Shown here: piece by piece, positions 36,809 through 47,274 of the stretch | How the letters are laid out: the number at the start of each line of letters is the position of its first letter | How positions within the stretch are numbered: position 1 is the stretch's first letter | Source of the DNA: Gammaproteobacteria bacterium | Lineage (GTDB): Bacteria; Pseudomonadota; Gammaproteobacteria; Ga0077536 | Assembly (NCBI GenBank): GCA_020849475.1 | Contig: JADLGE010000022.1 | Coordinates: forward strand, 1 to 64,000 | Direction of reading: 5' to 3' | DNA: 64,000 nucleotides | Made by a program: the position numbers and the translations under genes | The notes under the pieces: model-generated | Database searches by the model: none | Seen by the model: the letters and a program-made list of their open reading frames with translations, nothing else | What the model was told of the DNA's origin: nothing

Positions 36809-36883
36809 CGCGGCCCGGCGCGGGTGGCCTTTTGAGGCCTGCTGCGGCACTATTCCGGCTCGCTTATCTTGGCCGCAATCCCC

Positions 36884-38041
36884 ATGCATGTCGCGCTCAC
36901 TGAAGAACAGGCACTCATTCAAGACACCGCCCAGCGCTTTGCCGCAAGCGAGCTGGCGCCGGTCGCGGCGCAGGTCGAACTGCCCGAATTTCGCGCTACC
37001 TATCTCGCCAATCTGAAGCGCCTCGCCGAGCTCGGCTTCATGGGCTTGAACGTCGACCCGGCCCATGGCGGTAGCGGTGCGGGCGTGGTCGCGTTCAGCG
37101 TGGCCGTGACCGAAGTCGCGCGCGCCTGTGCCTCGACGGCGGTGGCGATGTCGGTCAACAACTTGGTCGCGGAAGTGATCCAGGCCATTGGCAACGACGA
37201 GCAGAAAGCGCGTTACATCGAACGCATCTGCAATGGAGAATACCCGGCGGCGGGCTTTTGCCTGTCCGAAGCCGGCGCCGGCTCCGACCCTTCTTCCATG
37301 AACACCCGCGCGCGGCGCGATGGCGATCACTTCGTGCTGAACGGCACCAAGATGTGGATCTCGAACGCCGAGTACGCGGGCGTGTTCGTGGTGTGGGCGG
37401 TGACCGACGCCAACGCAGCCCAAGGCAAGGGCATTTCGTGCTTTCTGGTCGAAGCCGGCACGCCTGGCCTCACCATCGGCCCCCATGAACACAAGATGGG
37501 CCAGCGCGGCTCCAGCACCAATCCGGTCATCTTCGAAGACGTGCGCGTGCCGGCCAGCGCCATGCTCGGCCGCGAGAACGATGGCTTTCGCATCGCGGTC
37601 GGTGAACTGACCGGCGGCCGTATCGGCATCGGCTCGCTGGCGCTCGGCATCGGCAACGCGGCCATCGACATCGCGCGCAAGTACATCACCGAGCGCGAGC
37701 AGTTCGGCAAGCGCATCGGTGATTTCCAGGGCATCCAGTGGATGCTGGCCGACACCTATACCGAACTCGAAGCGGCGCGCCTGCTGCTCATGAGCGCGGC
37801 TTACCAGAAAGAAAGCGGCCAGGCCTATGCCAAGGCCGCCTCGATGGCCAAGCTGTTCGCGACCGAGAGCGCCAACAAGGCCTGCTACACGGCGCTGCAG
37901 TTGATGGGCGGCGTCGGTTACACCGAAGCGATGCCGCTTGAGCGTCTCGCGCGCGACGCGCGCGTCACCACCATTTATGAAGGCACCAGCGAAATCCAGC
38001 GCGTCATCATCGCGCGTGAACTGTTGAGGGAAGTGGCGTGA
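36884..38041 (+). CDS. Acyl-CoA dehydrogenase (SCAD/BCAD-like)
   Basis: 385 residues; FAD-dependent alpha,beta-dehydrogenation of an acyl-CoA, electrons going to ETF. The full domain set is visible: N-terminal helices (LTEEQALIQDTAQRFAASEL), FAD-binding FCLSEAGAGSDPSSM (about 125-139) and MWISNAEYAGVFVVWA, and the C-terminal bundle ending VTTIYEGTSEIQRVI, where Glu in YEGTSE is the catalytic base at the short-chain/branched-chain position. I start at ATG 36884; a TTG at 36869 in the same frame is possible. The next gene overlaps by GTGA. Confidence 0.88.
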   Translation: MHVALTEEQALIQDTAQRFAASELAPVAAQVELPEFRATYLANLKRLAELGFMGLNVDPAHGGSGAGVVAFSVAVTEVARACASTAVAMSVNNLVAEVIQAIGNDEQKARYIERICNGEYPAAGFCLSEAGAGSDPSSMNTRARRDGDHFVLNGTKMWISNAEYAGVFVVWAVTDANAAQGKGISCFLVEAGTPGLTIGPHEHKMGQRGSSTNPVIFEDVRVPASAMLGRENDGFRIAVGELTGGRIGIGSLALGIGNAAIDIARKYITEREQFGKRIGDFQGIQWMLADTYTELEAARLLLMSAAYQKESGQAYAKAASMAKLFATESANKACYTALQLMGGVGYTEAMPLERLARDARVTTIYEGTSEIQRVIIARELLREVA

Positions 38042-39306
38042 ATTTCGAACTACCGGAACAATTGCAGGCCTATCTCGCGGAACTCGACCAGTTCATCGAG
38101 CGCGAAATCAAACCGCTGGAAGAACAGGACGACAACATCCGTTTCTTCGATCATCGCCGCGAACATTCACGCACCGACTGGGACAATGGCGGCATTCCGC
38201 GCCACGACTGGGAAGCGCTGCTGGCCGAGGCACGGCGCCGCGCCGACGCCGCCGGTCATTATCGCTATGCGTTTCCCAAAGAATTCGGCGGCCGCGACGG
38301 CACCAATCTCGGCATGGCGGTGATTCGCGAGCATCTCGCTGCCAAGGGCCTCGGCCTGCATTGCGATCTGCAGAACGAGCACGCCATCGTCGCCAACAAC
38401 ATCGGCCTGTTGCTGATGCTCCATTACGGCAGTGAAGAACAGAAGCGCGAGTGGGTGGAACCGCTCGCCAACGGCACTGGCTTCATCGCCTTCGGCATCA
38501 CCGAGCCCAAGCACGGCTCCGACGCCACACACATGGAAACCACCGCCGTGCGCACCGCTAATGGCTGGCGCATCAACGGCGAGAAGACCTGGAACACCGG
38601 CATTCATACCGCGCCCTGCGACATGATTTTCGCGCGCACCGCCGGCAAGGCCGGCGATGGCGACGGCATCACCGCCTTCCTGGTGCCGACCAACGCGAAA
38701 GGCTTCAAGGTCGAGGAGATGCTGTGGACCTTCAACATGCCGACCGACCACGGCCGCATCAGCATGACGGATGTGGAAGTGCCGGATTCGGCCATCCTCG
38801 GCAAGGAAGGCCGGGGCTTGCAAATCGTGCAGCACTTCTTCAACGAGAACCGCATTCGACAGGCAGCTTCGAGCCTCGGCGCCGCGCAGTTCTGTGTGAA
38901 TGAATCGGTGGCCTATGCGCTCGAGCGCAAACCCTTCGGCAAACCGCTGGCCTCGAACCAGGGCATCCAGTTTCCGCTGGTCGAACTGCAGACTCAGTGC
39001 GAGATGGTGCGCGCCCTCATCCACAAGACCGCCTGGATGATGGACCAGTACGGCGCGTTCTCGGTGTCGGACAAAGTCTCGATGTGCAATTTCTGGTCGA
39101 ACCGCCTGTGCTGTGAAGCGGCCGACCGCGCCATGCAGGTGCATGGCGGCATGGGCTATTCACGGCACAAGCCGTTCGAACACATTTACCGTCATCATCG
39201 CCGCTATCGCATCACCGAAGGCGCGGAAGAGATCCAGATGCGCCGCGTGGCGGGCTACATGTTCGGCTTCATGAAGCAGCGTGCGCCCAAGGGCGTGGTC
39301 GAATAG
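38038..39306 (+). CDS. Second acyl-CoA dehydrogenase, divergent subfamily, coupled to the first
   Basis: 422 residues from GTG 38038, overlapping the stop of the first dehydrogenase (GTGA). It keeps the flavin site (GITEPKHGSDATHM about 157-170; GEKTWNTGIHTAP about 183-195) and the C-terminal RYRITEGAEEIQMRR, where Glu in TEG is at the catalytic-base position. It is larger than the first and has an N-terminal DQFIEREIKPLEEQDDNIRF stretch and a conserved HDWEALLAEARRRADAAGHY segment typical of subfamilies acting on bulky or cyclic acyl-CoAs. Two unlike acyl-CoA dehydrogenases in one transcript may form a heteromeric enzyme, as in actinobacterial steroid side-chain enzymes, though those are of a different subfamily. 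Confidence 0.85.
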   Translation: MNFELPEQLQAYLAELDQFIEREIKPLEEQDDNIRFFDHRREHSRTDWDNGGIPRHDWEALLAEARRRADAAGHYRYAFPKEFGGRDGTNLGMAVIREHLAAKGLGLHCDLQNEHAIVANNIGLLLMLHYGSEEQKREWVEPLANGTGFIAFGITEPKHGSDATHMETTAVRTANGWRINGEKTWNTGIHTAPCDMIFARTAGKAGDGDGITAFLVPTNAKGFKVEEMLWTFNMPTDHGRISMTDVEVPDSAILGKEGRGLQIVQHFFNENRIRQAASSLGAAQFCVNESVAYALERKPFGKPLASNQGIQFPLVELQTQCEMVRALIHKTAWMMDQYGAFSVSDKVSMCNFWSNRLCCEAADRAMQVHGGMGYSRHKPFEHIYRHHRRYRITEGAEEIQMRRVAGYMFGFMKQRAPKGVVE

Positions 39307-39363
39307 CGCGCTGCCCGCAAGCATCATCCCTGCGAATCACCCCACAGATTGATTGGAGTCGCC

Positions 39364-39819
39364 ATGAAACTCGTGCCCTTGATGACCTATTACGCCACGC
39401 TCACCAATGCCCTGCCGGTCGGCCCCGGCATGTACGGCAATCGTCTCATCGTCGAAGTGGACGGCGGCGAATTCGAAGGGCCACGCCTGAAGGGCGTGAT
39501 CCGCAAAGCGGGCTGCGCCGACTGGCTGACCATGACCGAAGATTTCGGCCATCTCGATGTACGCGCCACCCTCGAAACCCACGACGGCGCGTTCATCTAC
39601 CTCGAATACATCGGCAAACTCGAACTGACGCCCAAGGTACAGGCCGCCCTCGCCGGCAATGGCACCACCGAATTCGGCGAAAGCTATTTCGTCACCGCGC
39701 CGCGCATGCAGACCGGCGACCCGCGCTATGCCTGGGTCAACAACATGGTCTGCGTGGCACAGGGCAAGATAGGCGCGGGGCGGGTGGACTACCGGGTGTT
39801 TCAGGTGGTGAATGATTGA
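39364..39819 (+). CDS. DUF3237-family protein
   Basis: 151 residues; a compact beta-barrel protein with GPGMYGNRLIVEVDGGEFEG (about 20-39), the LTMTEDFGHLDVRATLETHD block (about 56-75) and YFVTAPRMQTGDPRYAWVNN (about 118-137), which are the conserved parts of DUF3237. Function is unknown; members often sit beside acyl-CoA or aromatic catabolism genes. It is 57 bases downstream of the acyl-CoA dehydrogenase pair on the same strand and is likely co-transcribed with them. A family A repeat pair follows it. Confidence 0.75.
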   Translation: MKLVPLMTYYATLTNALPVGPGMYGNRLIVEVDGGEFEGPRLKGVIRKAGCADWLTMTEDFGHLDVRATLETHDGAFIYLEYIGKLELTPKVQAALAGNGTTEFGESYFVTAPRMQTGDPRYAWVNNMVCVAQGKIGAGRVDYRVFQVVND

Positions 39820-39925: not shown

Positions 39926-41155
39926 CTAGGCGTACAAGCGGTTTTCTGCCAAGGCCCCACACAAACCGCGGTACAAGTTGCGTAGCTGATCCCGCGTCGG
40001 CGCCTGCCCACCCACTGCCAGCAGACGCCGCGCCAGCGGCGCGCGCTTCAACAGGGCGGCGACGTGTTCACCGCCCGGCCCTTCCAGCACGCCGTTGCCC
40101 GCGCAGAGCGCCTGCCACGCAGCGCCCATGGTGCAAGGCTGCGTGCCGAGACCGAGCGCATTCAACACACTGGCGTCGTCCAGCACCACCTGCTCGCCAT
40201 CTCTCAAGCTGCGCTCGAACAGCGTGGCGAGCACTTCCGTGGATACCGCCACCTGCGCATCGCGCGCACTGTGCCGCTCTTCGTACAGCGCCTTGACCAA
40301 GGCCACCACCGCGCGCGCCACGGCGAGATCCGCGCGCGGACTTTCCTGCGCATCGAGAATGCGGATTTCAATCGCGCCGCGCTCAAAACGCGCAATCGCG
40401 CCGCGCGAGTTCAGCCACTCGCCGTCCAGCACTTTGTCGGTATCGAAAGGCGCGATGGCTTCGAACATCGGCGCCAGAATGCGGCTGTGGTACTCATCGA
40501 TACTCGCCACGCGGTCCGGGATCACGCGACCGGTGATCTCGGGCACGCGCTTCTGATTCAGACGATAGGTTTCGAGGCGTGTATCGAGCAGGCCGCTGGC
40601 CTTGCCGTCGACATAGGGCGAGGCCGCCGCCAGCGCCGGCAGCAGCGGCAGGGCAATGCGGATCGCATCATGCAGCCGCACGAACTCGGCGTCGTTGGCG
40701 AACGGCAGGTTGATATGCATGCTCTGCAGATTGGCCCAGCCATGACCGCGACAGTTGAAGATGCGGTCGTAGGCGGCGTAGATCTCGTTCTGCTCGTGGG
40801 GCCACAGGCGCTGCTCGGTCAAGGGGTCCATCCACGGATGCATGGGCCCGGGCAGCACGCGCGCATTGTGCTTGGTCAGCAGCGCGTCGATGCGCGCGAC
40901 TTCGGCGCTGAACAACTCATCCAGACCATCAAGGCTGGCGGCCGGCCCATTGGTCTTGAGTTCGATGACGTGCAGTGACAATTCGTTGGACCAGCCGATG
41001 GGGCCGTCGGCGAATTCGTTGACTTCGGCGCCCGCCACCTCGGCCAGCAGGCGGTCGGCGATGGCGCGCACGTCGAGCGTGTCGCGGTCGACGATGGCGT
41101 ATTCAATCTCGATGCCGTAGGCGGCAAAGGCACTCAAAGGCGCGCGCTTGTTCAT
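39926..41155 (-). CDS. GCS2-type carboxylate-amine ligase (glutamate-cysteine-ligase-like)
   Basis: 409 residues. The N-terminal AYGIEIEYAIVDRDTLDVR is the GCS2 nucleotide/metal-binding strand (YGIEIEY, glutamates at about 15-17), followed by GWSNELSLHVIELKTNGPAA, ANLQSMHINLPFANDAEFVR and ARFERGAIEIRILDAQESPR, all at the positions of the GCS2 active site. The family forms amide bonds between a glutamate carboxylate and an amine using ATP; plant-type GshA and YbdK are examples. It is the last gene of a three-gene overlapping operon (ATGA with the ATP-grasp gene). Its substrate is presumably the product or substrate of that ligase rather than cysteine, but this is inferred. Confidence 0.78.
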   Translation of the reverse strand: MNKRAPLSAFAAYGIEIEYAIVDRDTLDVRAIADRLLAEVAGAEVNEFADGPIGWSNELSLHVIELKTNGPAASLDGLDELFSAEVARIDALLTKHNARVLPGPMHPWMDPLTEQRLWPHEQNEIYAAYDRIFNCRGHGWANLQSMHINLPFANDAEFVRLHDAIRIALPLLPALAAASPYVDGKASGLLDTRLETYRLNQKRVPEITGRVIPDRVASIDEYHSRILAPMFEAIAPFDTDKVLDGEWLNSRGAIARFERGAIEIRILDAQESPRADLAVARAVVALVKALYEERHSARDAQVAVSTEVLATLFERSLRDGEQVVLDDASVLNALGLGTQPCTMGAAWQALCAGNGVLEGPGGEHVAALLKRAPLARRLLAVGGQAPTRDQLRNLYRGLCGALAENRLYA

Positions 41156-42630
41156 GCGATGTCGAACTCCAGGCGCTTGCGCGCGATGATGCGGCGGAGC
41201 ATGAGCCCCATGATTTCGCGATACAGCGCGTCTTTCAGAACCTTGTCTTCGTTGCCGGCGTCGACGTTGGGATTGTCGTTGACCTCAATGACCACCGCGC
41301 GGCGACCGATGCGCTTCAAGTCCACACCATAGAAACCGTCGCCGATCAGATTGGCGGCGCGCACCGCGGCGCGCACGATGTCGGCCGGCGCCTCCGCCAC
41401 GCTCAAGGTGTCGACCGCGCCTTCAGCGGCGGTCTTGCCGCTGGCATCACGCTGGATCACCTGCCAATGACTCTTGGCCATGTGATAGCGGCACACGTAC
41501 AGCGGCCGACCATCGAGCACACCCACCCGCCAGTCGAAGTCCGTGGGGCAGAATTCCTGCGCGACCACGAGATCCGAACCATCGAAGAATTTCTCCAGCG
41601 CGCGATGCAGTTCCTCGGCATCGGCGACCTTGATGACACCCGCCGAGAACGAACTGTCGGGCGCTTTCAGCACGCACGGAAAGCCGCACACCGCTTCGAC
41701 TTCATGGGCGTTGCCGCGATGCACGATCAAGGTTTTGGGGATGGCCACATCGTAGCGATCGAGCAGCTCCGCCAGGTAGACCTTGTTGGTGCAGCGGATG
41801 ATCGAGCGCGGGTCGTCGATCACCACCAGGCCTTCCGCTTCGGCGCGGCTCGCCATGCGGAAGGTGTGATGGTTGACCGAGGTCGTCTCGCGGATGAACA
41901 GCGCGTCGAACTCGGCCAGGCGCCCGACGTCGTCGCGCGTGATGAATTCACAGGCCATGCCGACCGCATCGGCGGCGCGCTCGAATTTCTTCAACGCCCG
42001 CGCATCGGACGGCGGGGTCTTTTCATTGGGGTCGACGAGGATAGCGACATCGAAGCGCGATGCCGCGCGTTTGCGCCGGACCGGATGGCTGCGCTGGAAA
42101 TGGCCAGCGGCGGCCTGCGCGACGAACGCCCGGTGCTTTTCCGGTATGTCATTGGCGCCGACCAGCACCACCGAGCGCAATTCCCAGCGATTGCCACTGC
42201 GTTCCAGGCGCGCGCGCAGCAGCGGCGCCGGAAAGAGATCGAACAAGGCCTTGGCCAGGGCATCGTAGCGGCTCGCCATGTTCTGTCCGAAGTAAATCGA
42301 CAATTCGAAGCTCTTCGAGCGCAGCGGCTTCAGCATGCGCTGGATGCGCTCGTCGAGGTCTTCCGACAGCGCGCGCACCACGCTGCGCGAGCGTAAATCC
42401 TGCAGGGTGCTGATGCTCGGCATGGGCCGATGGCCACGGGCTTCCGCCAGCAGCGAGACGTAGTAACCGCCGGTCTGGTAGCGATAGGAGCGGCACAGAT
42501 TGAAGACCTTGGCGGCGCGCATGTCGCTGTAACGCCTGTCGGTCAGGTAATCACCGGACGAAATCACTTCCACGCCGGGAATGGTCAGCGGCCAGCGCTT
42601 GGGATTGTCGACCACCAGCAAAGCACTCAT
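41152..42630 (-). CDS. RimK-like ATP-grasp ligase with N-terminal RLAN domain
   Basis: 492 residues in two halves. Residues 1 to about 150 form the RLAN (RimK-like ATP-grasp N-terminal) domain: LLVVDNPKRWPLTIPGVEVI, then SDMRAAKVFNLCRSYRYQTG and GYYVSLLAEARGHRPMPS. From about residue 205 the ATP-grasp follows: NKVYLAELLDRYDVAIPKTL (about 285-304), FPCVLKAPDSSFSAGVIKV, AQEFCPTDFDWRVGVLDG and the Mg-binding RAVVIEVNDNPNVDAGNED (about 453-471). RimK-type ligases form acyl phosphates and add amino acids to a carboxylate, often glutamates to a protein or peptide. It overlaps the C39-like peptidase gene upstream and the GCS2-type gene downstream by 4 bases each. No carrier peptide gene is evident. 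Confidence 0.82.
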   Translation of the reverse strand: MSALLVVDNPKRWPLTIPGVEVISSGDYLTDRRYSDMRAAKVFNLCRSYRYQTGGYYVSLLAEARGHRPMPSISTLQDLRSRSVVRALSEDLDERIQRMLKPLRSKSFELSIYFGQNMASRYDALAKALFDLFPAPLLRARLERSGNRWELRSVVLVGANDIPEKHRAFVAQAAAGHFQRSHPVRRKRAASRFDVAILVDPNEKTPPSDARALKKFERAADAVGMACEFITRDDVGRLAEFDALFIRETTSVNHHTFRMASRAEAEGLVVIDDPRSIIRCTNKVYLAELLDRYDVAIPKTLIVHRGNAHEVEAVCGFPCVLKAPDSSFSAGVIKVADAEELHRALEKFFDGSDLVVAQEFCPTDFDWRVGVLDGRPLYVCRYHMAKSHWQVIQRDASGKTAAEGAVDTLSVAEAPADIVRAAVRAANLIGDGFYGVDLKRIGRRAVVIEVNDNPNVDAGNEDKVLKDALYREIMGLMLRRIIARKRLEFDIA

Positions 42631-43340
42631 GAATCACGCTCCAGAATGAGCAGGCTGGCGTCGTAAGTCATGACGCCAAGCAGGATGGCACCGATCACGC
42701 GATCGATGTGTACCCAGTATTTCTGGCCGGCGCCGACCGGATTGGGTACGTAAGGGTCGGCCACCGCGATGCTGCGGTCGTCGCGGTTGTAACCGGCCAG
42801 CACCACGAAATGGCCACAGGATTCGCCATGCACGTCGTCCGGATCGTCATGTGGGCCCGAGACCCGCGCCTGGCGATACAGATAAGTCAGATTGAGACCG
42901 GCGATGACCGGCACACCACGGCGAAACATGCCGCGTAGTTCACCACGGGTGAGATCGGTAAAACGCAGACGTCCGCCACGTTCCAGGAATTCACAATAGC
43001 CGTCGACCGCGAATTTGAACTTGGCGCTGCGTTTGCGCGCCGCGCGTTCGCGCAGCTTGGCGGCAATGTCGGTGGATGAGTCTTCGAACCAGGTCGGGTC
43101 GAAGAGATTCAGATTGAAGGTGTAGATGGTGGCGTCGAAGCCGCGCTTCAGGGCGTCGCAGGCGAGGTGCACTTCGAGCGTGCCGCCCTCGGCCAGCGGC
43201 GTGACCGAATCGATGACCTTGCCGAGACGGATATCCAGGCCGTGATAACGATACAGCGCATGCAGGCAGGTCGGTCCGCAGGTAATGCCGTCCGGCTGCG
43301 GCTCGATGTCTACCGGCAGTTCAAGAACGTCTACGGGCAT
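42627..43340 (-). CDS. C39-like cysteine peptidase (DUF3335-like), first gene of the ligase operon
   Basis: 237 residues, no signal peptide. The papain/C39-type triad is visible: Cys21 in GITCGPTCLHALYRYHG, His177 in GESCGHFVVLAGY and Asp195 in IAVADPY. The C39 relative PF11814 (DUF3335) is found next to RLAN-type RimK ligases, sometimes fused to a GNAT domain; here no GNAT is fused. It is the first gene (ATG 43340) and overlaps the ligase by ATGA. The role could be cleavage of a leader or conjugated peptide, or transpeptidation to the next amine. Which of these applies is unknown. Confidence 0.75.
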   Translation of the reverse strand: MPVDVLELPVDIEPQPDGITCGPTCLHALYRYHGLDIRLGKVIDSVTPLAEGGTLEVHLACDALKRGFDATIYTFNLNLFDPTWFEDSSTDIAAKLRERAARKRSAKFKFAVDGYCEFLERGGRLRFTDLTRGELRGMFRRGVPVIAGLNLTYLYRQARVSGPHDDPDDVHGESCGHFVVLAGYNRDDRSIAVADPYVPNPVGAGQKYWVHIDRVIGAILLGVMTYDASLLILERDS

Positions 43341-43563
43341 GGTCGCGGTGCGGCGCGGTCGAGTGGCGGATGCTCAGAGCGGTCCCCTCCGGGGTGACGA
43401 TTTTTCCCTCATGTCGAGCCACATGGTAACCAGATTTAGCGCCTAGGACGGCTGGCGATTTTCAGGTTTAATGCGGCGCAAGGGAAGAGCAAACGACCCC
43501 GCGCCCGACACCGCCGCGCTGAAGCGTGCTCCCCAACGCATTATGTCGCGAGGATCCGCAACG

Positions 43564-44670
43564 ATGAAATTCGGCCTGATTTACGAACTGTCCACGCCGC
43601 GGCCGTTTACCGCCGCCACCCAGCGCGAAGTGTTCGAGAACGCACTCGAGCAGATTCGCGTCGTCGACGAACTCGGCTTCGCCAGCGTGTGGTGCGTCGA
43701 GCATCACTTCCTCGAGGAATACAGCCACGCCAGCTGCCCTGACATGTTCCTGACCGCCGCCGCGCGCGAGACCAAACAGATTCGTCTCGGCTTCGGCATC
43801 GGCACCTGCGTGCCGTCCATGCATTCGCCGATACGCTGGGCCGAGAAAGCCGCGTTTCTCGATCACCTGTCCAATGGCCGCGTCGAGTTCGGCACTGGCC
43901 GCTCCTCGACCTGGAACGAACTCGGCGGTTTCAATTCCATCATCGACGACACCAAGCGCACCTGGGATGAATTCTGCCGCGTGATTCCGAAGATGTGGAC
44001 CGAGGAACGCTTCTCCTACAACGGCACCTACTTCAGCATGCCGGAGCGCTGCGTGCTGCCCAAGCCCATGCAGGACCCGCATCCGCCGCTGTGGGTGGCG
44101 GTAACCGCGCCGGGCACCGAATTCGATGCCGCCGATCGCGGCATGGGCGCGCTGATTCTTTCCATCTCCGATGTCGAACGCAATATTCCGCGCATCAAGG
44201 AATACCGCGAGCGCATCAAGCGTTGCCAGCCGGTCGGCTCCTTCGTCAACGACCAGGTAGCGATTGCGAACTGGCTGTACTGCCACCCCGATGACGATTA
44301 CGCCAAGCGTAAAGGCGATGAACTCATCGGCACTTTTGGCTACATGGCCGGCCAGACCATTGAAGTGTCGGAAGCCTATCCGGCCAACAACTACACCGCC
44401 ATCGGTCTCTTGGGTTCGCTGCGACCCGACCCGAATGCGCCGGGGGACCAGAAGAAGCCGCCGGCCAGTGGCCTGTGCTTCGGCAATCCCAAAACCCTCG
44501 TCGAAACCATCAAGCGCTGGGAAGCGGCGGGCGCCGACCATCTCGTTTTCATGATCCAGGCCCGCGAACATCTGGCGCAGCAGGACGTGCTCGATTCCCT
44601 GCGCCTGTTCGCCAAGGAAGTCATGCCGCACTTCAGCGGCGCGCGCATGAGCGCGGCGGTGAACGCATGA
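43564..44670 (+). CDS. Luciferase-like monooxygenase (LLM class flavin-dependent oxidoreductase)
   Basis: 368 residues from ATG 43564 (alternative ATG 43543 in frame). The TIM-barrel start MKFGLIYELSTPRPFTAATQ and FASVWCVEHHFLEEYSHASC (about 44-63), then RLGFGIGTCVPSMHSPIRWA and the GRVEFGTGRSSTWNE block (about 107-121), are standard bacterial-luciferase-family motifs. It would use reduced flavin from a separate reductase to oxygenate or oxidise a small substrate. Its stop overlaps the next gene's ATG (ATGA), so it works with the acetoacetate-decarboxylase-like protein that follows. Confidence 0.82.
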   Translation: MKFGLIYELSTPRPFTAATQREVFENALEQIRVVDELGFASVWCVEHHFLEEYSHASCPDMFLTAAARETKQIRLGFGIGTCVPSMHSPIRWAEKAAFLDHLSNGRVEFGTGRSSTWNELGGFNSIIDDTKRTWDEFCRVIPKMWTEERFSYNGTYFSMPERCVLPKPMQDPHPPLWVAVTAPGTEFDAADRGMGALILSISDVERNIPRIKEYRERIKRCQPVGSFVNDQVAIANWLYCHPDDDYAKRKGDELIGTFGYMAGQTIEVSEAYPANNYTAIGLLGSLRPDPNAPGDQKKPPASGLCFGNPKTLVETIKRWEAAGADHLVFMIQAREHLAQQDVLDSLRLFAKEVMPHFSGARMSAAVNA

Positions 44671-45431
44671 ACGCGCCGGTCCTGCTTTACGGTCATCGTG
44701 AGCCGGCCACCGTGCCGCTGGCGTCCATGGCCCTCGACGTCTCGCCGCAGGAGACCTTGGTCCTGGCCGACGTGCAGATTCTCTACGTGCTGCACGAAAT
44801 GCCGATGCAGGCGGCGCTGGCGCGTTTGCCGGTGGCGCTGCATCCGAGCATTCCGGCGGTGCTCGGCATCACCTTCATGCACGCCAAAGACAGCCCTTTC
44901 GGTGAATTCACGCTGGCCTATGTCGGCATTGCCTGCCGCACCGGCATCAAGCCGCGCCACTTCATCACCGGCGCGTTCTGTGGCAACGCCGCGGCCGCCA
45001 ATTATTTCGGCAGTCGCTACGGCTTCGACTGCAAGAGCGCCACGGTCAGCTATCGCGAAACCTACGACCGCATCCGCGGCGAGGTGGTGATGGACGGTCG
45101 CAGCGTGCTCGACATCGCCATCGCCGAGTGCGTGCCGCTGGTCGGCACTGGCGGCATCATCAAATATTCACCGCCCTTGACCGCCACGCGAGTGGGCGGC
45201 GAGGCAGCGCTGGTGCAGTTCGAGGCGGGTTACGACTTCAAGCGTTCGATACGCGGCCGCTCGCAGCTGGCGACCTTCGACGCCGCGGCGCTGGGCGACG
45301 CCGCACTGACGCCGACCATGGGCATCGCCGGTTCCCACGCGGTGGTGGATCTGCATTTGATGCCGGCGCGCTTCCAGGTCTCCTTGACCACCCCGGCGGA
45401 AGCAGGCGGCGCGAAGAAGATCGCACGCTGA
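44667..45431 (+). CDS. Acetoacetate-decarboxylase-fold protein, coupled to the monooxygenase
   Basis: 254 residues. The ADC cone fold is suggested by the strands LVLADVQILYVLHEMP, AVLGITFMHAKDSPFGEFTL (about 70-89) and FITGAFCGNAAAANYFGSRY (about 104-123). In characterised ADC enzymes a lysine forms a Schiff base with a beta-keto acid or aldehyde; here a Lys occurs in YGFDCKSATVSYRETYD, but I cannot confirm it is the catalytic one. Overlap with the LLM gene argues that the two act in sequence on one substrate. A 200-base region of nested palindromes follows. Confidence 0.65.
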   Translation: MNAPVLLYGHREPATVPLASMALDVSPQETLVLADVQILYVLHEMPMQAALARLPVALHPSIPAVLGITFMHAKDSPFGEFTLAYVGIACRTGIKPRHFITGAFCGNAAAANYFGSRYGFDCKSATVSYRETYDRIRGEVVMDGRSVLDIAIAECVPLVGTGGIIKYSPPLTATRVGGEAALVQFEAGYDFKRSIRGRSQLATFDAAALGDAALTPTMGIAGSHAVVDLHLMPARFQVSLTTPAEAGGAKKIAR

Positions 45432-45449
45432 GTCGCACTTCCTACCGTT

Positions 45450-45607
45450 GTAGGTGCGAATTCATTCGCATTTTTGCTGCCCTTGTGGGTCAGACTTCAG
45501 TCTGACATTCAGGCCGAGACCGGAATGTTCACCTCGCCCTCAAGTGTCAGACTGAAGTCTGACCCACAGGAGGAGAGGCCCAGCAATGCACGAATGAATT
45601 CGCACCC
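45450..45607. repeat. Nested palindromic element: family B units flanking family A units
   Basis: From left to right: family B unit (45450-45470, GTAGGTGCGAATTCATTCGC on plus), family A unit (45485-45510, GTGGGTCAGACTTCAGTCTG), a 34-base spacer, an inverted family A unit (45545-45568, TGTCAGACTGAAGTCTGACC), and an inverted, degenerate family B unit (45587-45607, TGCACGAATGAATTCGCACC). The order B-A-spacer-A'-B' makes the whole 158 bases one large inverted repeat. It lies between two plus-strand genes and fills most of that gap. Confidence 0.8.
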
Positions 45608-45630
45608 ACACGGCTAACGAGGACCTCGAT

Positions 45631-47274
45631 GTGACCGAACCCCTCACCATCGCGCGCGTGCTCATCAACGAACTCGAGGCGCGCAATGTCGGTCATGTGT
45701 TCGGCATTCCGGGCGACTATTCACTGGGCCTGTTCAAGGTCATCGAAGAATCCAGGGTGGCCTTGATCGGCACCTGCGATGAGCAGGGCGCGGGCTTTGC
45801 CGCCGACGCCTATGCGCGCATCCGCGGTCTCGGCGCGGTGGCGGTCACTTACGGTGTGGGCGGCTTGAAGCTCGTCAATTCCACGGCCCAGGCCTATGCC
45901 GAGCGCTCGCCGGTGGTGGTGATAAGCGGTGCGCCGGGTGTCGGCGAAGCGGCCAACGACGCCCTGCTCCACCATCGCGTGCGCGACTTCGGCACGCAGA
46001 TGCGGGTGTTCCGCGAAGTGACCGTCGCGCAATGCATACTTGACGATGCGCAGACCGCGCAGCGTGAAGTGCGCCGCGTGCTGGCGGCCGCCGCCCGTCA
46101 CAAGCGGCCGGTGTATATCGAACTGCCGCGCGACTGCGCGCTGGCGCGCATCGCCGACGACGGCCCCGAGACCCTCGCCAGCGTGACGCCCAGCTACGAT
46201 GCCGCCACGCTGGCCGAAGCGCTGCACGAAGCGGTGGAGATGTTGAACCGCGCCACCGCGCCGATCATCCTCGCTGGCGTCGAACTGCACCGCTTCGGTC
46301 TGCAGGACAAGCTCATTCAACTGGTGGGCAAGTCCGGCATCCGCTTCGCCACCACCATCATGGGCAAGTCGGTGGTCAATGAAGAACTACCGGGCTTTGT
46401 CGGTGTGTATGCCGGCAGCCTGTCAAATGAAATGGCGCGCGCCGCGGTCGAGAGCAGCGACTGCGTGCTGAATCTCGGCGCGATGCTGACCGATCTCGAT
46501 ACCGGCATCTTCACCGCCAATCTCGACCCCGCCCGCTTGATTGCGGCGGGCGCCGAATCGCTGAGCATCCGTCGGCATCATTTTCAAGGTATTGGACTCG
46601 CCACCTTTCTCGATGGCCTGTGTCGCGCCAATCTCGTCGCGCGCGGCGCGCTGCCGCCGAGTTGCCACGCGAGTCCGGACAGCTTCGAGCCCATGGGTGA
46701 CGACGCAGTCTCGATTGCACGCTTGTTTGAATGCCTCGACGCCGAGCTGTCGGAAAACATCGCGGTGATTGCCGACCCCGGCGATGCCTTGTTCGGCGCC
46801 ATCGATCTGACCATCCATTCGCGCAGTGAATTCGTGGCCTGCGCCTACTACGCGTCGCTGGGTTTCGCGGTGCCGGCCTGCGTGGCGCTGCAACTGGCCG
46901 AGCCGCAATGGCGGCCGCTGGTGCTGGTGGGCGACGGGGCGTTTCAAATGACCGGCATGGAGTTGTCGACCGCCGCTCGTTACGGCCTGACACCCATCGT
47001 GGTGGTGCTGGACAACAATGGCTACGGCACCGAGAGACCGATGCTGGACGGCGTTTTCAACGACGTGCACGCATGGGCGGTGAGCCGCATTCCGGACGTC
47101 ATCCGCTGCGGGCGTGGCTATGAGGTCACGAGTGAGGCTGAGTTTGTCAGCGCCTTGAAAGCGGCACTCGCCGATACCGACCATCTCGCCATCATTCATG
47201 TGCACATCGCAAAGGGCGATATTTCACCGGCACTGGAGCGTTTGACCAAGGAATTGGGGCGGCGTGTTTCCTGA
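45631..47274 (+). CDS. ThDP-dependent 2-keto acid decarboxylase (indolepyruvate/phenylpyruvate type)
   Basis: 547 residues from GTG 45631. Thiamine-diphosphate enzyme with the three-domain PDC/IPDC fold: VFGIPGDYSLGLFKVIEESR (about 24-43), the activating Glu in GTCDEQGAGFAADAYARI (about 47-64), and the cofactor motif GDGAFQMTGM ... VVLDNNGYGTER (about 435-470). It ends with HIAKGDISPALERLTKELG, as in indolepyruvate decarboxylases. It converts an aromatic or branched 2-keto acid to an aldehyde. An adjacent ATG (45629) is out of frame. It is the only gene in this strand block after the nested repeats and may be read from its own promoter. Confidence 0.85.
   Translation: MTEPLTIARVLINELEARNVGHVFGIPGDYSLGLFKVIEESRVALIGTCDEQGAGFAADAYARIRGLGAVAVTYGVGGLKLVNSTAQAYAERSPVVVISGAPGVGEAANDALLHHRVRDFGTQMRVFREVTVAQCILDDAQTAQREVRRVLAAAARHKRPVYIELPRDCALARIADDGPETLASVTPSYDAATLAEALHEAVEMLNRATAPIILAGVELHRFGLQDKLIQLVGKSGIRFATTIMGKSVVNEELPGFVGVYAGSLSNEMARAAVESSDCVLNLGAMLTDLDTGIFTANLDPARLIAAGAESLSIRRHHFQGIGLATFLDGLCRANLVARGALPPSCHASPDSFEPMGDDAVSIARLFECLDAELSENIAVIADPGDALFGAIDLTIHSRSEFVACAYYASLGFAVPACVALQLAEPQWRPLVLVGDGAFQMTGMELSTAARYGLTPIVVVLDNNGYGTERPMLDGVFNDVHAWAVSRIPDVIRCGRGYEVTSEAEFVSALKAALADTDHLAIIHVHIAKGDISPALERLTKELGRRVS

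Follow-up and report, generated by a model that had tools for sequence, protein, structure and literature searches.

A conserved gene set for a C39-like peptidase, an RLAN-ATP-grasp ligase and a GCS2-family ligase, and the amide-bond pathway that it may encode

What might a papain-fold cysteine enzyme and two ligases of different families accomplish together? The question is raised by three adjoining genes (Table 1) on a gammaproteobacterial contig, of which the window, i.e., the whole stretch of DNA that was analyzed, comprises 64,000 nucleotides. A first, sequence-only reading had taken them for one overlapping operon, and this holds: all three open reading frames (ORFs) lie on the minus strand, and ATGA overlaps are seen at both junctions. 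As the DUF3237 gene found 3' of the GCS2 gene is convergent and the luciferase-like monooxygenase gene found 5' of the C39 gene is divergent, the transcription unit appears to be limited to the C39, ATP-grasp and GCS2 genes. A scan of the locus for promoters and terminators gave no signal above shuffles. The wider flanks (36869-39819 and 43471-47274) harbor acyl-CoA dehydrogenase, DUF3237, luciferase-like monooxygenase, ADC-like and TPP-enzyme genes, and three relatives (L099, L100 and L101) show partial synteny in these surroundings of the triad.

Table 1. Coordinates of the three genes and their overlaps in the window.
Feature	Position	Strand	Remarks
C39-like (papain-fold) cysteine peptidase or transpeptidase	42627..43340	-	237 aa; first gene; PF13529
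RLAN (about residues 27-173) + RimK/LysX-like ATP-grasp ligase (193-483)	41152..42630	-	492 aa; second gene; PF14401, PF08443
GCS2-family carboxylate-amine ligase	39926..41155	-	409 aa; third gene; PF04107
ATGA overlap, C39 stop / ATP-grasp start	42627..42630	-	sequence
ATGA overlap, ATP-grasp stop / GCS2 start	41152..41155	-	sequence

None of the three window proteins reached the cut-off of an NCBIfam model, and the operon had no match among the known anti-phage systems of PADLOC. The C39 protein is assigned by Pfam to Peptidase_C39_2 (PF13529; 31.4 bits, cut-off 24) and also to PF03412. All 66 of its homologues match PF13529; the DUF3335 profile (PF11814) was matched by one of the 66 (E 2.2e-4) and not by the window protein. 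Cys21, His177, Asp195 and Gln15 are invariant in the alignment of these 66 homologues. The AF2 model (pLDDT 95) resembles the C39 domains of ComA/PCAT (Z 16.5 over about 135 residues) and, in a tie, the glutathione-bound phytochelatin synthase Alr0975 (Z 16.2 over 165 residues). A search of viral contigs and plasmids for the C39 protein gave no match.

The second protein belongs to the RLAN family by a wide margin (E 6.2e-50, 169 bits, Pfam gathering cut-off 25) and matches the Pfam RimK family (E 3.1e-06), while its score against the NCBIfam RimK equivalog model, 30.9 bits, is far under the cut-off of 331. Its ATP/Mg residues Lys283, Lys322, Arg368, Asp437, Glu449 and Asn451 are invariant among 61 aligned sequences, and the VIEVNDNPN string was confirmed. 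The D-x-R and E-x-N motifs, which are features of an amide-forming ATP-grasp assemblage (PMC4431377), align with their LysX/RimK counterparts. In the structure model (pLDDT 90), the ATP-grasp part is closest to ArgX/LysX (Z 28.3) and RimK (Z 27), with glutathione synthetase also among the fold matches (Z 22.1); this list is filled by the ATP-grasp part and says little on the RLAN domain.

The third protein matches the GCS2 family of Pfam (E 7.5e-31, 108 bits, cut-off 21) and is the host genome's only GCS2 protein. Its best-matching named NCBIfam family is YbdK (TIGR02050), at 72 bits against a cut-off of 176.4; it is far below the GshA and EgtA cut-offs and under the cut-off of every named ligase family, so that glutamate is not certain to be its substrate. 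The alignment with plant glutamate-cysteine ligase is a weak match of 54 residues, too short for mapping substrate residues. Glu15 and Glu17 of the YGIEIEY motif, Glu57, Glu64, His146 and Arg264 are invariant among 36 aligned sequences. The catalytic residues that the sequence-only reading had named for all three enzymes are thus present in the window, and the invariance of the residues listed above suggests that all three enzymes are probably active.

That reading proposed as its main test that the triad should co-occur elsewhere. When GTDB genomes were scanned with the GCS2 alignment alone, at least 549 related stretches were found, and among the best 80 loci, which were analyzed, 68 contain all three genes. 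These 68 complete triads span eleven named phyla, and every one of them has the order C39-ATP-grasp-GCS2 on a single strand; several of the remaining 12 loci are interrupted by contig ends. RLAN was detected in all 16 genomes tested. Where the operon is split, its parts are kept elsewhere in the genome, as found in the three genomes examined: Nitrosospira retains C39-GCS2-FGase at the locus and has its type II RLAN ligase at another site, and two Planctomycetota carry the C39-RLAN pair on a separate contig from GCS2. Within the triad, the protein distance matrices correlate (r 0.71-0.75). In locus L130, 1.1 kb with no recognizable gene inside separates the ATP-grasp and GCS2 genes. Across 398 Pseudomonadota genomes, the window's own copy was the only match of the GCS2 profile, indicating that this type of triad is sparse there. 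Cultured carriers include Aromatoleum, Noviherbaspirillum, Nitrosospira and Marinoscillum. Three metagenome-assembled genome records (L107, L122 and L125) are titled Klebsiella pneumoniae and are probably mislabelled; by its equal length and match, L107 lies on the same contig as L099, a genome of the window's genus.

The sequence-only reading also suggested a distinct subtype of RLAN system. RLAN was found in 72 of 398 Pseudomonadota genomes surveyed, and 67 RLAN loci from this survey, the relatives and the window were compared. A GNAT-DUF3335 peptidase partner is present at 43 of them, adjacent in all cases but L091 (1.5 kb away); the C39 triad type, window included, accounts for six, one of which breaks off ahead of GCS2; at the remaining 18, neither partner lies within about 7 kb. 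The earlier wording that GCS2 replaces the GNAT stands as a description, GNAT-DUF3335 occurring at none of the six triad loci and at 43 of the 61 others, whereas the functional equivalence of the two is something that we infer. In a single-method tree (FastTree) of 140 RLAN-ATP-grasp proteins, a branch with support 0.961 separates all 79 from C39/GCS2-type loci from the 43 of GNAT-DUF3335-type loci and the 18 unassigned proteins. A distinct subtype is thus supported, with an RLAN clade of its own and a peptidase that differs by profile from that of the GNAT-DUF3335 systems, here called type I; the type I DUF3335 and type II C39 peptidases are nonetheless homologous (hhalign probability 96.7). 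Desulfosediminicola (L180 and L197) has two RLAN ligases, one in a type II triad and another that is nearer to type I.

When the flanking ORFs around the best 80 loci were clustered, a single partner recurred strongly, an N-formylglutamate-amidohydrolase-like gene (FGase, PF05013). It comes immediately 3' of GCS2, in the same orientation, at 55 of the 80 loci, and lies anywhere in the locus at 57, six loci having less than 1 kb of downstream sequence left. FGase is thus the fourth member of the gene set in most relatives, which is new in the present analysis. It is absent beside the window operon, as it is in two same-genus relatives with downstream sequence. The interpretation given earlier therefore survives as to the operon, the residues, the triad elsewhere and the subtype, but not in calling the enzyme set self-contained, since most relatives add an FGase that is missing at the window locus. 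HutG is of the same PF05013 family as the operon FGases, but the scores are far apart (19-21 bits against a HutG cut-off of 278.75), and this identification was rejected. The host's only FGase-family gene, a divergent one at C31:13951-14574 (L187), scores 112 bits against at least 257 for nearly all operon members (the exception, L141, has 182); it was considered as the missing partner and is probably a different FGase. By eye, it adjoins ORFs resembling AdoMet decarboxylase and spermidine synthase.

Other neighbors are less regular. EgtC-like amidotransferases occur near five loci. In four of these, a class II glutamine amidotransferase gene is divergent and upstream of C39 (L122:6847-7677, L125:6808-7647, L142:1265-2125 and L172:6718-7620); the fifth copy is downstream, in L185. 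A GNAT-nitrilase fusion lies between the C39 and RLAN-ATP-grasp genes of a Pirellulaceae operon (L182:6830-8386), and its relatives are found in the operon neighborhood of L138, L144, L157 and L115. A graspetide or LysW-type pathway would be expected to have a gene for a small precursor or carrier in its cluster. A search for conserved short ORFs near the operon yielded only shadow frames of known genes, with no obvious peptide substrate and no candidate for a ribosomal precursor or a LysW-like carrier beside the operon.

The type II RLAN system may represent a conserved pathway of amide-bond formation in the cytosol, with a small glutamyl compound as its likely product, a proposal that we favor tentatively and that stops a little short of being probable. 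As predicted from its family, GCS2 would activate the gamma-carboxylate of glutamate and couple it to an amine, yielding a gamma-glutamyl amide. The RLAN-ATP-grasp ligase, by the model of RimK, LysX and glutathione synthetase, would then join an ATP-activated carboxylate to the amine of an amino acid, and this second amide bond would give a small molecule resembling a tripeptide. The C39-like enzyme might trim or transpeptidate the product, as phytochelatin synthase does with glutathione, and FGase, where present, might strip an N-acyl or gamma-glutamyl group for recycling. The gene set with its order and conservation, the invariant residues, the C39 and ATP-grasp folds as modelled and the phyletic linkage are direct results of the analysis, and from them we infer the order of the reactions, the use of glutamate, the small-molecule nature of the product and the roles of the two hydrolases; a gamma-glutamyl product is plausible. 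A small molecule is favored over a ribosomal precursor because no conserved short ORF was found nearby. Several observations count against the pathway: GCS2 reaches no named ligase-family cut-off, the nearest ATP-grasp relatives (RimK, LysX and ArgX) use a protein C-terminus or a carrier and not free dipeptides, and the C39 fold is as close to protein-cleaving C39 domains as to Alr0975. Nearly as likely as the pathway itself is a widespread and previously uncharacterized cycle of the four enzymes, with GCS2 and RLAN building and C39 and FGase taking apart, through which many phyla would sustain either a novel gamma-glutamyl metabolite or a novel, reversible tag of glutamyl units.

The main rival is the tagging of a protein or peptide, since an acceptor might be encoded elsewhere. 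GCS2 would start a gamma-linked glutamyl branch, the RimK-like ligase would extend it, and C39 and FGase would remove it, on the models of RimK/RimB acting on ribosomal protein S6 and of tubulin polyglutamylation. We consider this rather unlikely: GCS2 enzymes of known function use free amino acids as substrates, and a conserved acceptor or carrier ORF was not found beside the operon. The nearest solved ATP-grasp relatives, RimK and the LysW-carrier ligases LysX/ArgX, nevertheless speak for it, and four enzymes without a transporter or tailoring enzymes would suit a tagging cycle. RimK/RimB, moreover, likewise couples a ligase to a protease that undoes its work (PMC12239564).

A special thiol pathway, analogous to glutathione and phytochelatins and serving in metal or redox stress, would explain the part-by-part correspondence of GCS2 to GshA/EgtA, of the RLAN ligase to GshB and of C39 to phytochelatin synthase. 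The tied fold match with Alr0975, the presence of glutathione synthetase among the ATP-grasp matches and the EgtC-like amidotransferases beside five loci are consistent with it. It is improbable, however: a strong GshB match (2e-76) is already present in the host genome, as in those of many other carriers, GCS2 scores far under the cut-offs of GshA and EgtA, and there is no hint of a cysteine substrate. That the operon serves as the host's own glutathione route was rejected, given this GshB match elsewhere in the genome and given that its GCS2 is the only one there. We give an equally low probability to a compatible solute in the form of a capped dipeptide, modelled on N-acetylglutaminylglutamine amide synthesis, in which a dipeptide made by the RLAN ligase would be capped at its amine, by GCS2 in type II and by GNAT in type I. 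This would fit the alternation of GNAT-DUF3335 and C39 + GCS2 as RLAN neighbors and the GNAT-nitrilase fusion within one type II operon; the type I GNAT part also weakly matches the N-acetylglutaminylglutamine synthetase model, but over the generic GNAT domain (E 5e-4). No osmotic-stress genes were found among the conserved neighbors, and a pair of hydrolases would be unusual for a solute. That three unrelated metabolic genes became neighbors in one directon by chance, for which nothing speaks beyond the absence of a known product, is scarcely credible in view of the identical order in 68 of the best 80 loci, across eleven named phyla, and of the presence of every part in the three genomes examined that have a split operon.

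Pseudomonadota, Planctomycetota and Bacteroidota all keep the same gene order, which implies that the product is of real physiological value. Together with the definition of the clade, the addition of FGase provides a concrete enzyme set for reconstitution, and cultured carriers exist. We know of no product of the type II gene set. Neighborhoods of RLAN, DUF3335 and amidoligase genes were reportedly predicted by Iyer et al. in 2009. In two later papers, that study is cited for ATP-grasp ligases (PMC12239564) and for GNAT-DUF3335 fusions (PMC10318531). No description of the RLAN + GCS2 + FGase combination was found in the literature searched, and Iyer et al. (2009) may already list this GCS2/FGase variant.

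Several known systems resemble the window operon in part. Type I systems, reportedly predicted by Iyer et al. (2009), likewise have an RLAN-ATP-grasp ligase adjoining a papain-like peptidase, but with GNAT fused to DUF3335 and without GCS2 or FGase nearby. RimK/RimB, which glutamylates S6, and LysX/ArgX have the ATP-grasp fold and the D-x-R/E-x-N motifs in common with the window ligase, and RimK/RimB also pairs a ligase with a removing peptidase; the window set differs in its extra RLAN domain and GCS2, no link to S6 or LysW being seen, and RimB is a retropepsin, unrelated to the papain-fold peptidase. Glutathione synthesis by GshA/GshB, taken together with phytochelatin synthase, likewise combines a GCS-type ligase, an ATP-grasp ligase and a papain-fold enzyme; for phytochelatin synthase, defined by its fold and its gamma-Glu-Cys transpeptidase activity, the resemblance to the window C39 protein that is shown here is one of fold.
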